Shown: in pieces, positions 1 to 41,717 of the stretch
Layout of the letters: every line of letters starts with the position of its first letter
How positions within the stretch are numbered: position 1 is the stretch's first letter
DNA from: an uncultured Lachnospiraceae bacterium
GTDB taxonomy: Bacteria; Bacillota; Clostridia; Lachnospirales; Lachnospiraceae
Direction of reading: 5' to 3'
Assembly (NCBI GenBank): GCA_947625015.1
Contig: CANQMR010000023.1
Location: forward strand, 1 to 54,624
DNA length: 54,624 nucleotides
Notes under the pieces: generated by a model
What the model was told of the DNA's origin: nothing
What the model saw: the letters and a program-made list of their open reading frames with translations, nothing else
The model's database searches: none
Translations under genes and position numbers: made by a program

Positions 1-180
1 CAAACATGCTGACTTAGAGAAAAACATTTATATATAAACTCTCAAAGAAATATAGTGCTAAATCCTAAAGACGGGGATTTCTTAAAACCGATGACAGTGC
101 GGGAAAATGGGAAGGAATTATCCTGTGGCGGTATTAGATTAATATAGCGGAATATATGGAAAGAGAGGCCGCAGGAGGCA
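1..180. repeat. Long palindromic intergenic element, copy 1 (right arm only, cut by window start)
   Basis: Sequence shared with two complete copies at 15187-15699 and 41168-41717. CAAACATGC (1-9) and GGATTTCTTAAAACCG (75-90), then CAGTGC (95-100) and a GGGAAAATGGGAAGGAA block, occur in the same order as in the right arms of the other copies. Between the first two blocks this copy holds about 65 bases, against roughly 17-20 in the others, and that stretch is AT-rich. The left arm would lie outside the window. The outer limit (about 180) is approximate because the arm cannot be checked against its partner. Nothing else was seen in 1-230. Confidence 0.7.
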
Positions 181-13726: not shown

Positions 13727-15106
13727 CTATTTTCCGAGGAGCTCTTCGCCTACTAAATACACATCTCCGGCCCCCATAGTTATCAACAAATCATTTTTTT
13801 TACAATTTTTTAACAAATAATTTTCAATTGCGGGGAAGGAACTGAAATATTTTACATCTGTGCCGTATTCCCTAATCCGGTTCGCCAGGTCTTTGGCGTG
13901 TACTAAGCCGGTGTCGGCCTCTCTGGCCGCATAGATATCCGTTACGATGACATGGTCAAATCCCTTCAGGGCGTCGGCAAACTCCTCCAACAGAGCCTTT
14001 GTCCGGGTGTAGGTGTGGGGCTGGAACACAACCCACAGCTCATGATGGGGCGTATGGGTGGCTGTGGCCAGCGTGGCCTTAATCTCTGTAGGGTGGTGGG
14101 CGTAATCATCAATGACAGTCACATTTCCTAAAGTTCCCTTTTTTTCAAACCGCCTGTGGGCGCCGCCAAAGCAGGCAAGCCCCGCAAGGATATGTTCTCT
14201 GTCAATGCCGAGCAAATCCGCTGTGGCAATGACGGACAGGGAATTGGTAATGTTGTGGGTGCCGCCGATATTTAAGTGAACCCGCTCCTGTGGGCGGCCG
14301 TCTACAACCAGGGTGTAGTTCATATGTCCCTGTTCGTCCGCTTCTATATCGGTCGGATAATACCGGTTGGTGTCCTTCATTCCGAAGGTGATAATGTTGC
14401 AGGAAAGTTCTCTTGTCACCTTTGGCAGGCAGTCCATGTCTCCGTTTACAATCAGGGTTCCCTCTTTGGAGAGGTTGCCGGCAAAGGTGTGAAAACTTTC
14501 TATAATCTCATCTATGCCGCTGAAGAAATCCAGATGGTCCGCATCTACATTTAAAATGATACTGATATATGGATAAAATGCATGATAGCTGTTAGTGTAT
14601 TCGCAGGCCTCCGCCACAAAATAGGGTGAGCTTCCCACCCGCACATTGCCGCCGATAGAATCCAATACGCCGCCGACGGAGACAGTCGGGTCCACGTCAG
14701 CTTCCATAAATACCTGACTTAACATGGAGGTTGTGGTCGTCTTTCCATGCGTGCCGGCAACGGCAACGGAATATTGGTAGTTGTTCATAATCTGTCCCAA
14801 AAGCTGCGCTCTGGTCAGCATGGGGAGCTTCTTTGCCACGCAGGCGGCAAACTCCGGATTGTCCTTGTGGATTGCGGCGGTATAGACCACTAAATCAATG
14901 TCGTCGGTGATATTTTCCGCGCACTGGCCGATATTAATTCTGGCTCCCATGGCAATCAGATTATCAACGATATCGGAGCCCTTGGCGTCTGAGCCGCTGA
15001 TCGTAAACTTCTCCTTCAGCAAAATCTCAGCCAGACCGCTCATGCTGATACCGCCAATCCCGATAAAATGCACATGGATGGGCTTTTCAAAATTAATCTG
15101 ATACAT
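13727..15106 (-). CDS. murC: UDP-N-acetylmuramate--L-alanine ligase
   Basis: Cytoplasmic Mur ligase adding L-alanine to UDP-MurNAc, the first amino acid of the peptidoglycan stem. At 459 residues it is full length. N-terminal Rossmann domain HFIGIGGISMSGLAEIL, ATP loop GTHGKTTTTSM (about residue 110), and the C-terminal domain with DDYAHHPTEI and FQPHTYTRT. AAGGATAACGCT precedes the ATG. It is transcribed alone from a promoter that overlaps the edge of the palindromic element at 15187. Confidence 0.97.
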   Translation of the reverse strand: MYQINFEKPIHVHFIGIGGISMSGLAEILLKEKFTISGSDAKGSDIVDNLIAMGARINIGQCAENITDDIDLVVYTAAIHKDNPEFAACVAKKLPMLTRAQLLGQIMNNYQYSVAVAGTHGKTTTTSMLSQVFMEADVDPTVSVGGVLDSIGGNVRVGSSPYFVAEACEYTNSYHAFYPYISIILNVDADHLDFFSGIDEIIESFHTFAGNLSKEGTLIVNGDMDCLPKVTRELSCNIITFGMKDTNRYYPTDIEADEQGHMNYTLVVDGRPQERVHLNIGGTHNITNSLSVIATADLLGIDREHILAGLACFGGAHRRFEKKGTLGNVTVIDDYAHHPTEIKATLATATHTPHHELWVVFQPHTYTRTKALLEEFADALKGFDHVIVTDIYAAREADTGLVHAKDLANRIREYGTDVKYFSSFPAIENYLLKNCKKNDLLITMGAGDVYLVGEELLGK

Positions 15107-15165
15107 AGCGTTATCCTTCTTCCCTCAAACTTTGCAGGCACCAGTCCGTACCCGCTATTCTCTTC

Positions 15166-15194
15166 ATTATATAATATGAACCACCGTTTTACAA
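15166..15194 (-). promoter_or_regulatory. Promoter for murC
   Basis: On the minus strand TTGTAA (complement of 15189-15194), 17-base spacer, TATAAT (complement of 15166-15171). The -35 box falls on the left tip of the palindromic element. Confidence 0.6.
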
Positions 15195-15699
15195 GTGCGT
15201 ATACCGCCGAATTGAACGGCTTTCCCCTTCGTCTGCCGTAAATATCAGCGCCTGCCGCCGGGGAGAAATCCTGTCCCCTTTTTCCTGACACGCGGTTTTT
15301 TAGAAATCCGCCGCCCGCCTGACCTGCTTGCCGCACGCGCGCAGAAGTGTCTGAGCGCCGGGGTTGGGGTATTGGGCAAACATCATGCAGCCACGCTTGC
15401 GCTCTGTTAAAAACGCAGCGGTACATAAGCGGAGGGTTTCATAAACTTTATAATGAGATAAGTTTTGATACCCTCCGCAAGTACCGGCGTTTTTAAAGGG
15501 GCTGCTGATGTTTCCCAATTACCCCTCCCCGGTGCGAGTTCTTCGGGAGCGCGTGCAATCAAACAAGCAGGCCGGGCGGCAGGATTTCTTAAAACCGAAA
15601 CCAGTGCAGGAAAAAGGGAACAGGATTTCTCTTCGGCGGATATGCTATAAAAAGCGGCAGATGAAGGGAAAAGCCGTTCCAATCGGCGGATATGTAAAA
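15187..15699. repeat. Long palindromic intergenic element, copy 2 (complete)
   Basis: A 513-base imperfect palindrome filling the murC/ABC transporter intergenic region. TTTTACA (15187-15193) mirrors TGTAAAA (15693-15699). Inward, GAACGGCTTT mirrors AAGCCGTTC, GCCGCCC mirrors GGGCGGC, CCTGCTTG mirrors CAAGCAGG, and the centre pairs GGAGGGT (15431-15437) with ACCCTCC (15470-15476). The outer and middle arms are unlike those of the copy at 41168, yet pair within this copy. Blocks shared by the two complete copies include CACGCTTGCGCTCTGTTAA (15392-15410), AAGTGTCTGAGC and GGATTTCTTAAAACCG (15582-15597). Small open frames here are not genes. Confidence 0.9.
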
Positions 15700-15704
15700 T
15701 ATAT

Positions 15705-15733
15705 TTGACAAATTGTAAAATAAGTGTTATGTT
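15705..15733 (+). promoter_or_regulatory. Promoter for the ABC exporter operon
   Basis: TTGACA (15705-15710), 17-base spacer, TATGTT (15728-15733), six bases outside the right tip of the palindromic element. Confidence 0.65.
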
Positions 15734-15797
15734 TGTAGAGACAAGAGGAAATGGCAGGTCGGTTTGTTTGGGTATGGAAGGATAGGAGGTTTGGAGA

Positions 15798-16718
15798 ATG
15801 AAACTGGAGGTTAAGAATATTACGAAGTCTTTCGGAGACAAGGAAGTGTTAAAGGGAATTTCCTTTTCGGCGGAGGGTGGAAAGGCGCTGGGGCTTTTAG
15901 GGCGGAACGGCGCCGGGAAGACCACCACGATACGGATTTTGATGGATGTGTTTCATGGGGACGGCGGCGAAATCCTGTTAGACGGGAAGCCGTTTGAGCC
16001 GAGAAAGGTGCAGATTGGGTATCTGCCGGAGGAGAGAGGGCTGTACCCCAAGCGGGAGATTTTAGAGCAGATGGTCTATCTGGCCAGACTGCGGGGGCTT
16101 AGCAAGAGCCAGGCGGAGAAGAATGCCAGAAAGTGGCTTGACCGGTTACAGGTGGACGCTGACGGGAAGAAGCTGTTGGAAACTTTATCTAAAGGGAACC
16201 AACAGAAGGTGCAGTTGGCCTCCACTTTAGTGTGCAATCCGGACATGGTGATTTTGGATGAGCCCTTCAGCGGATTAGACCCGGTCAATTCCCAGATTTT
16301 GCAGGAGGTGGTAAAGGAGTTGATTGCCGAGGGGAAGATTGTGCTCTTTTCCAGCCACCAGATGAGCTATGTGGAGGAATTTTGCCAGGAGATAGTGATT
16401 ATCAATCATGGCGAGATTGTCTTACAGGGAAATTTAGAGGCGGTTAAGCGGGAATTTGGAGAGAATCAGTTAGTTGTAGGCGGGGTTGGTCTTTCCGGCG
16501 AAGATATGGAAAGACTGATTAAGGAGCAATTTGCAGAAATGGTGGAGATTACCGGAAGGGATAGGGAAGACGTCATTGTAAGGCTGCTGCCGGGGATAAC
16601 CAGAACGGAGCTGTTTCGCCGGCTGGGAAATGTGCAGGGCTTGGAAGTGGAACATTTTGAGACTTATAAACCGTCCTTAAATGATATTTTTGTGGCAAAG
16701 GTAGGTGAAGAGAGATGA
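15798..16718 (+). CDS. ABC transporter ATP-binding protein (NatA-like)
   Basis: A 306-residue ATPase that should drive the permease encoded next. Walker A GRNGAGKTTT (Lys41), signature LSKGNQQK, Walker B MVILDEPFSGLDP and switch His in FSSHQMSYVEE. The last 80 residues form the C-terminal extension typical of NatA/YhaQ exporters. NatAB-type systems export sodium or other toxic compounds; the substrate here is not evident. AGGAGG lies 9 bases before the ATG. The last four bases overlap the permease start (ATGA), so the two are translationally coupled. Confidence 0.9.
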   Translation: MKLEVKNITKSFGDKEVLKGISFSAEGGKALGLLGRNGAGKTTTIRILMDVFHGDGGEILLDGKPFEPRKVQIGYLPEERGLYPKREILEQMVYLARLRGLSKSQAEKNARKWLDRLQVDADGKKLLETLSKGNQQKVQLASTLVCNPDMVILDEPFSGLDPVNSQILQEVVKELIAEGKIVLFSSHQMSYVEEFCQEIVIINHGEIVLQGNLEAVKREFGENQLVVGGVGLSGEDMERLIKEQFAEMVEITGRDREDVIVRLLPGITRTELFRRLGNVQGLEVEHFETYKPSLNDIFVAKVGEER

Positions 16719-41167: not shown

Positions 41168-41717
41168 TATATCCATTTTCCCGCCCGTACAGTTCCGGCC
41201 CGGCTTCACCGCCTCATCCCCGCCTACCCGCCCCGGAATGTCCCATTATACCGCCGAAAGAAAATTCCCTTCCTCTTTTTCTGACACGCGGTTTTTTAGA
41301 AATCCACTGCCGGGTTGTCCTGCATGAAGCACGTGCGGAGAAGTGTCTGAGCACCGGGTTTGGGGTGCTGGGCAAACATCTTAAGCCACGCTTGCGCTCT
41401 GTTAAGAACGCAGCGCTACTAAGCGCAGGACATGAAAACAACACGCACAAAAATTTTTATGTCCTCCGCAAGTACCGGCGTTCTTAAAGGGGCTTTAGAT
41501 GTTTCCCAGTCACCCCTTCCCGGTGTGAGTTCTTCGTAAGCACGTGCAATCAAACATGCAGGACAACCCGGCAGCAGGATTTCTTAAAACCGAAACCAGT
41601 GCAGAAAAAAGAGGAAGGGATTTTCTGCGGCGGTTTCTATGGAATACAGGGCGGATAAGCGGGGATGAGGCGGTGAAGCCGGGCCGGAAAAGTGATGCAG
41701 GCGGGAAAATTGATATA
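41168..41717. repeat. Long palindromic intergenic element, copy 3 (complete)
   Basis: A 550-base imperfect palindrome filling the gap between the MATE and acyl carrier protein genes. The outer arms include a perfect 29-base inverted match (41195-41223 against 41659-41687). The middle arms include a perfect 18-base match around GCCGGGTTGTCCTGCATG (41309-41326). The centre pairs AGGACAT (41427-41433) with ATGTCCT (41459-41465). None of these arms matches the corresponding arms of the copy at 15187, but the order and the conserved blocks are the same: GCGGTTTTTTAGAAATCC, CACGCTTGCGCTCTGTTAA (41387-41405), CTCCGCAAGTACCGGCGTT and GGATTTCTTAAAACCG (41577-41592). Confidence 0.92.

Follow-up and report, generated by a model that had tools for sequence, protein, structure and literature searches.

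Near-palindromic, transposon-like repeats of Lachnospiraceae whose arms are probably kept complementary by DNA-level copying around a constrained core

The window, that is, the whole 54,624-nt stretch of contig CANQMR010000023.1 analysed here (uncultured Lachnospiraceae bacterium, GCA_947625015.1), contains two near-palindromes of about 500 nt each in the genome's own contig, at 15196-15696 (copy 1) and 41175-41710 (copy 2), each of which folds into one single rod. RNAfold gave -308.0 kcal/mol for copy 1 (z -23.2) and -334.4 kcal/mol for copy 2 (z -21.6), and for each 0/100 shuffles were as good. The interval 41309-41576 marked by a first-pass annotation is only the inner part of the copy 2 hairpin (~41175-41710). 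The interior of copy 2 (41175-41710) holds no ORF of at least 80 aa, and copy 1 is partly overlapped by two minus-strand ORFs (15040-15426 and 15407-15928); the element, with lengths of ~240-540 nt, is short and without coding capacity. Copy 1 sits between divergent genes. The four genes adjoining the two copies match the MatE, phosphopantetheine carrier, Mur ligase and ABC transporter families, and there is no recombinase among them (7 proteins examined near the window copies). Two cores in the window match our core model R1 (E<=0.1). The features are as follows.

15196 to 15696, plus strand: complete copy 1, bounded by the outermost pairs of its fold; inverted relative to its orthologue in the sister genome G023
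15386 to 15508, plus strand: apical core of copy 1, core model R1 match of 62.1 bits
15392 to 15410, plus strand: conserved asymmetric block CACGCTTGCGCTCTGTTAA of copy 1, left arm only, from conservation among copies and genera
15290 to 15309, plus strand: conserved block ACGCGGTTTTTTAGAAATCC in the left arm of copy 1, slowly diverging, string located
15582 to 15598, plus strand: conserved block GGATTTCTTAAAACCGA in the right arm of copy 1, slowly diverging, string located
15323 to 15330, plus strand: variable stem of copy 1, left side, CCTGCTTG, pairing with 15564-15571
15564 to 15571, plus strand: variable stem of copy 1, right side, CAAGCAGG, partner of CCTGCTTG
15431 to 15437 and 15470 to 15476, plus strand: stem GGAGGGT / ACCCTCC of copy 1, strings located
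41175 to 41710, plus strand: complete copy 2, from its fold
41381 to 41499, plus strand: apical core of copy 2, core model R1 match of 55.3 bits
41387 to 41405, plus strand: conserved asymmetric block CACGCTTGCGCTCTGTTAA of copy 2, left arm only, from conservation among copies and genera
41193 to 41233, plus strand: outer arm of copy 2, left side, 41 nt, 95% complementary to 41649-41689
41649 to 41689, plus strand: outer arm of copy 2, right side, partner of 41193-41233
41289 to 41326, plus strand: inner arm of copy 2, left side, including the variable stem GTCCTGCATG at 41317-41326
41555 to 41592, plus strand: inner arm of copy 2, right side, including CATGCAGGAC at 41555-41564
41427 to 41433 and 41459 to 41465, plus strand: stem AGGACAT / ATGTCCT of copy 2, strings located
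65 to 121, plus strand: third copy, truncated to its right end, the remainder lying beyond the contig start

The strings quoted in the first-pass annotation are all present and paired as it described (positions checked in both copies), and folds and alignment confirmed its observation that pairing is conserved while stem sequence differs between copies. The exact reverse complement of CACGCTTGCGCTCTGTTAA is absent from the whole window, and CACGCTTGCGCTCTGTTAA is thus confined to the left arms.

The window's genome (G000, 47 contigs) contains ~30 long copies, and G023, a sister genome of the same genus, about as many. G023 was binned from a metagenome, and assemblies of short reads can be unreliable across palindromes. 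A search of 60 genomes (the window's own and relatives, with at most 12 candidates scored per genome) found long-element matches in four, over full length in G000 and G023 and over 35-40 nt only in G005 and G014. Because the BLAST strand misleads on near-palindromes, copies were oriented by the asymmetric block GCCACGCTTGCGCTCTGTT, which decided 29 of 30; each was then given the orientation that best fitted three copies already oriented. In the oriented alignment, left arms of the long version are alignable over 206-280 positions; blocks in both arms are nearly invariant, and the intervening and outer stems vary yet remain paired. The flanks of L017-L019, L021 and L024 are re-paired in G023 (at L046, L059, L061, L066, L068 and L073), as if copies had recombined. 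We do not claim chromosomal rearrangement between these copies, since L018 and L019 are identical over 333 nt, which makes misassembly possible.

A shorter element with the same apical core was found by pattern in 14/299 genomes of the family; the reversed pattern had 0 matches. The shared part is an asymmetric hairpin of ~92 nt. A covariance model built from 23 cores matched 159/397 Lachnospiraceae genomes, representing 140/334 genera (E<=0.001, with 10 candidates per genome scored). Of 291 genomes sampled from the class, an unstated share of which lie outside the window's family, seven matched at E<=1e-5, all of them in that family. Core matches numbered 57 each in G000, G023 and G250, 44 in G100, 30 in G378, 22 in G033, 19 in G180 and at least 150 in G065. 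Plasmid and phage collections, queried with one core each, gave no match. Eight viral contigs matching the core pattern (L105-L112) were set aside as probably chance, being by eye an apparent single protein-coding stretch without the hairpin. Titles and abstract openings of the papers listed yielded no description of this repeat family, and PMC11234323 is without words for inverted repeats, palindromes, gene conversion or transposons. As further observations, the left arm and part of the core are seemingly tandem-duplicated just upstream of the core in L077 (G110), and other dispersed repeats like AAGATTCTTCGCTTCGCTCAGAATGACA and CGGTGGCTCCGCCACCCTGAGG adjoin many copies in the L160-L169 flanks (G378).

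Such a family could be a structured noncoding RNA that is copied around the genome while ordinary compensatory selection keeps its stems. The very stable fold of both window copies speaks for this reading, as do internal loops conserved across genera and the covariation of the core. We aligned 94 matches in 86 chosen loci (73 distinct), fitted to the structure: 97.0% of cells are paired, two-sided cells number 202 vs 51.7 +- 6.7 when shuffled, and the covariation score is 0.422 vs <=0.093 when slid. The A of an AG bulge and the bases next to a small CGCTYTCGCT hairpin are among the unpaired positions that are conserved. Core mismatches comprise 51 G·U vs 22 A·C; two pairs account for 44 of the 51 G·U, and two apical pairs of uncertain alignment for 16 of the 22 A·C. 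Pair 40-107 (24 G·T, 0 A·C) and pair 30-114 (20 G·T, 1 A·C) tolerate G·U and hardly A·C, as an RNA would, and unlike the arms these two pairs look strand-specific. Against an RNA stands pair 33-111, which is C-G in 42 cases and T-A in 29, T·G and C·A each occurring once: a switch with intermediates nearly missing, as arm copying would produce. The homologue collection and covariance model proposed in the first-pass annotation gave strong core covariation by counts, and an RNA cause is not thereby established.

The outcome of the Rfam scans also counts against the RNA reading: in Rfam 15 no family matched over the element at the gathering cut-off (window and 25 loci, 26 sources). A scan of five loci at E<=5 gave eight matches, all below cut-off, including MIR9486 with 25 bits (cut-off 100) over the L002 core; a scan of 20 loci gave T-box, TwoAYGGAY and tRNA only, none over the core. 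Two of these known elements lie near core copies: a TwoAYGGAY RNA in L119 (1228-1389, minus strand), ~110 nt from a core copy starting at 1501, and a T-box leader in L127 (927-1177, plus strand), ~320 nt from a core copy starting at 1501.

In the arms, selection on one RNA strand would be expected to leave many more G·U than A·C mismatches; a small control of 14 tRNA acceptor stems showed 4 G·T and 0 A·C. For the count, each left arm was aligned with its right arm read backwards, under ordinary DNA scoring. In copies of the long version (52/60 located copies, 8 short ones being left out) 10213 arm positions were Watson-Crick, and the mismatches comprised 291 G·T, 255 A·C and 1029 of other kinds. 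Short copies from 64 loci in several genera, after removal of 6 long copies, repeated identical cores, loci with short flanks and 2 without arms, comprised 2893 Watson-Crick, 102 G·T, 91 A·C and 384 other combinations. G·T is about as frequent as A·C among arm mismatches, indicating that no RNA strand is favoured.

Orthologous copies pointed in the same direction. Sites in G000 and G023 were matched via flanks of ~1 kb, and changes were counted in 18 of the 21 assigned pairs (L003, L029 and L030 were left out; L010/L072 and the truncated L015/L067 were never assigned as orthologues, and L001 and L012 had no flank match). Over 3426 aligned base pairs, one-sided changes from or to Watson-Crick numbered 50 through G·U, 42 through A·C and 35 through other states. 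Two-sided changes from one Watson-Crick pair to another numbered 29, and ~0.4 would be expected from independent changes by our own arithmetic from the one-sided counts. A further 22 two-sided and 16 one-sided changes are between states of which at least one is not Watson-Crick; several of these 22 lie in inverted pairs and look as expected if a mismatch had been flipped. In the 12 same-orientation pairs, co-change was 27 at the true partner vs 2-12 at partners shifted by 1-6 positions. In the 6 inverted pairs it was 52 vs 24-41, a signal blurred because outer arms beyond the inversion are mis-compared.

Individual copies display the same concerted change. Both outer arms of L005 read CACCG, and both arms of its orthologue L042 read CACAG; both arms of L025 carry TTTTTCTG where L063 has TCTTTCTA, and L020/L051 likewise show a concerted arm difference. 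Near-identical copies within G250 and within G100 already differ by paired arm changes (by eye). In L013, ~25 nt of one flank match an inverted copy of the other flank, and its orthologue L045 is unrelated there; this appears to be arm growth at the flank's expense, with the direction inferred without an outgroup. The palindrome arms of L042 are ~50 nt longer than those of L005, each side being a slightly different copy of the same flank; as it lies at a contig end, this extra-long palindrome was left unused as evidence.

The arms copy each other at the DNA level. The lack of a G·U over A·C bias, the excess of two-sided changes, the concerted arms and the flips described below do not support selection on RNA structure, the cause proposed in the first-pass annotation, for the arms, where covariation is a mutational by-product. 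Its alternative, gene conversion between arms, fits the concerted change, the two-sided excess and the in-place flips. Covariation by itself does not separate RNA from DNA causes in this element.

Comparison of orthologous sites also demonstrated inversion in place. Among 16 pairs matched by both flanks, 10 have the same orientation and 6 are inverted (L004, L008, L016, L022, L026 and L027); window copy 1 is L026. The inverted copies are 95-98% identical in their own orientation and 55-58% in flank orientation, which shows that the same copy has been flipped. Five further pairs were assigned by one flank, three with the same orientation and two inverted, one of the two with just 70% flank match. 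The long version thus occupies the same site in both orientations, as an invertible element does. None of seven short-version pairs is inverted (two of them matched by one flank only), so flipping is not shown across the whole family, and by our arithmetic 0/7 vs 6/16 is not a significant difference. Copy 2 could not be compared in orientation with G023, because its adjoining genes have no orthologue in that assembly: each gene searched alone, with all candidates scored, gave weak matches of 58 nt and 31 nt only, and thus neither an orthologous nor an empty site of copy 2 in the G023 assembly. No empty site of copy 1 was found in 26 genomes of the same genus; outside G000 and G023 the two flanking genes were never observed joined.

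The flips bear on two of the alternatives. Since the element faces its neighbouring genes the other way round in 6/16 pairs, transcription from a fixed promoter outside it would not yield the same strand every time. We regard a structured RNA maintained by compensatory selection as improbable for the element as a whole. In-place inversion, together with the position of copy 1 between divergent genes, might instead suggest a site-specific inverton acting as a phase switch with a dedicated recombinase. Break points in the pairs inspected lie in the copy-specific outer arms, unlike a fixed recombination site, and the four genes adjoining the window copies include no such enzyme; we consider an inverton very unlikely.

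Past transposition of the element is shown for one lineage, that of G100. The element end TTCATGGGGTGGGGAAA occurs there 40 + 35 times (<=1 mismatch), with 0 in the control. Flanking repeats of 8 bp accompany 5/20 elements at <=1 mismatch vs 0/380 swapped pairs, and 9/20 at <=2 mismatches vs 1/380; the signal stands at one of 16 offsets tested, and the 8-bp length and offset of this anchored test were chosen after examples from the same genome. A strict duplication test in six genomes was positive at 1/65 loci, in G100 (0/542 swapped), and at none in the window's genome or the other four. For the short version in the window's genome, 7/12 loci had both ends and there was no consistent duplication offset; two loci had 2 mismatches, each at single offsets. 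By eye, L177 and L180 (G100) have longer flanking repeats of 16-19 nt, against a fixed 8 bp. The G100 ends may resemble those of IS66-type elements, which are accompanied by 8-bp duplications. Among the 75 ends in G100, inspected by eye, no inward-facing pair spans a gene-sized interval as a helper transposon would; pairs in which each end had a nearer partner were set aside, and ends with >1 mismatch escape detection. The same genome contains mini-palindromes of 42-107 nt with the same ends and without the core, some with 8-bp flanking repeats, which are probably internal deletions:

L187, L193, L195, L198, L201, L204, L211 and L213: mini-palindromes of G100

In the other lineages the copies, the window's own included, may also have arrived by transposition. 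The transposition signature in G100 would suit ordinary transposon copies with decaying arms, whose pairing is left from insertion. Such arms would not differ between copies yet stay complementary, nor would both arms change in concert once the species had separated; decay destroys pairing and does not restore it, and the two-sided orthologue changes contradict this reading, which we find barely credible. It is doubtful as well whether a recently copied transposon would look different, as the first-pass annotation states, given that a relative has terminal inverted repeats with 8-bp duplications and that near-identical copies in relatives already carry paired arm differences.

We measured where divergence is low in 15 of the 16 both-flank pairs (L030 was left out). 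Ten conserved blocks changed at 39/2606 sites (1.5%; 5.3% for block L2), the rest of the 300-nt element at 83/2157 (3.85%), the apical stem-loop at 57/781 (7.3%) and the outer arms at 231/2055 (11.2%); the flanks, which include coding sequence, changed at 79/2352 (3.4%) and 86/3553 (2.4%). The blocks were picked for conservation among copies, and their rate since the species split is a separate measure. Their slow divergence, which an RNA under selection would also show, suggests selection on copies in place. The comparison of blocks (1.5%) with the apical loop (7.3%) makes the core, not the arms, look functional. Cross-genus conservation and slow divergence at fixed positions likewise support the proposal of the first-pass annotation that blocks such as CACGCTTGCGCTCTGTTAA are the functional part.

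On a crude ORF map that placed 26 of 29 long copies, 20 lie in tandem gene pairs, 5 in divergent and 1 in convergent pairs. In the tandem pairs the ~325-nt body starts 77-125 nt past the upstream stop in 19/20 cases and 296 nt past it in the other, and the distance to the next gene is 67-498 nt. Around copy 2, 0 terminator-like sites were found vs 1.3 expected by shuffling, and promoter-like sites numbered 4 vs 1.1 expected, including one on the minus strand within the element. These counts decide nothing, but they lend no support to a plain intrinsic terminator.

Taken together, we hold with considerable confidence that the element is a transposon-like near-palindromic repeat whose arms are kept complementary by DNA-level arm copying and whose core is constrained. 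Arm-to-arm copying would proceed by template switching during replication or by recombination between the inverted arms; the same process would sometimes invert the interior in place, and could extend the arms by placing a copy of one flank on the opposite side. We infer template switching or recombination as the cause of copying and flipping, and likewise the enzymes responsible. The constrained part would be the ~92-nt asymmetric hairpin core with some conserved blocks of the long version, and the core most likely acts as a folded nucleic acid, either RNA or single-stranded DNA. This folded core is probably the working part; a core working as RNA and a core working as a DNA hairpin to which a mobilising or host protein binds seem to us about equally plausible. 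More tentatively, and with somewhat less than an even chance of being right, the core may be a new Lachnospiraceae-specific functional nucleic acid carried on palindromic mobile units, with purifying selection at each site, arm renewal and flips, and serving as an orientation-independent module just downstream of genes.

Several known systems resemble the element in part. In miniature elements of the MITE type, the ends are the shared part. Like a MITE, the element is short, non-coding and dispersed, with terminal inverted repeats and, in G100, 8-bp target duplications; it differs in that an asymmetric middle is common to 140/334 genera whereas ends and arms differ by lineage and copy, and in that the arms of the long version (206-280 positions) renew themselves. 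REP sequences and REPINs, the latter described as REP doublets linked to RAYT transposases (PMC3116915), are likewise intergenic hairpin repeats in which two-sided compensatory changes are common, but the element here is ~500 nt long and has a conserved core. Template switching at quasipalindromes shares arm homogenisation, spacer inversion and arm extension (PMC8604942 and PMC8794818). Template switching homogenises inverted-repeat arms and inverts spacers (PMC8604942), and RNA hairpins, with their compensatory changes, can be both generated and preserved by it (PMC8794818). The events described there have arms of ~5-16 bp, separated by no more than a few bases of spacer or loop, with homogenisation of long repeats mentioned as known; here, by contrast, inversion involves interiors of ~300 nt and affects many copies in each genome.

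Conserved RNA structure is usually proved by covariation. This family offers a natural example, with many copies, of DNA copying between arms giving rise to strong arm covariation. A simple test separates the causes, namely G·U vs A·C mismatches and one- vs two-sided changes in orthologues. The analysis also brings out a repeat family present in 159 of the 397 genomes sampled, with 19 to at least 150 core matches in each of the eight genomes counted. Repeats of this kind are likely to fragment assemblies of these gut bacteria and to mislead searches for RNAs in them.
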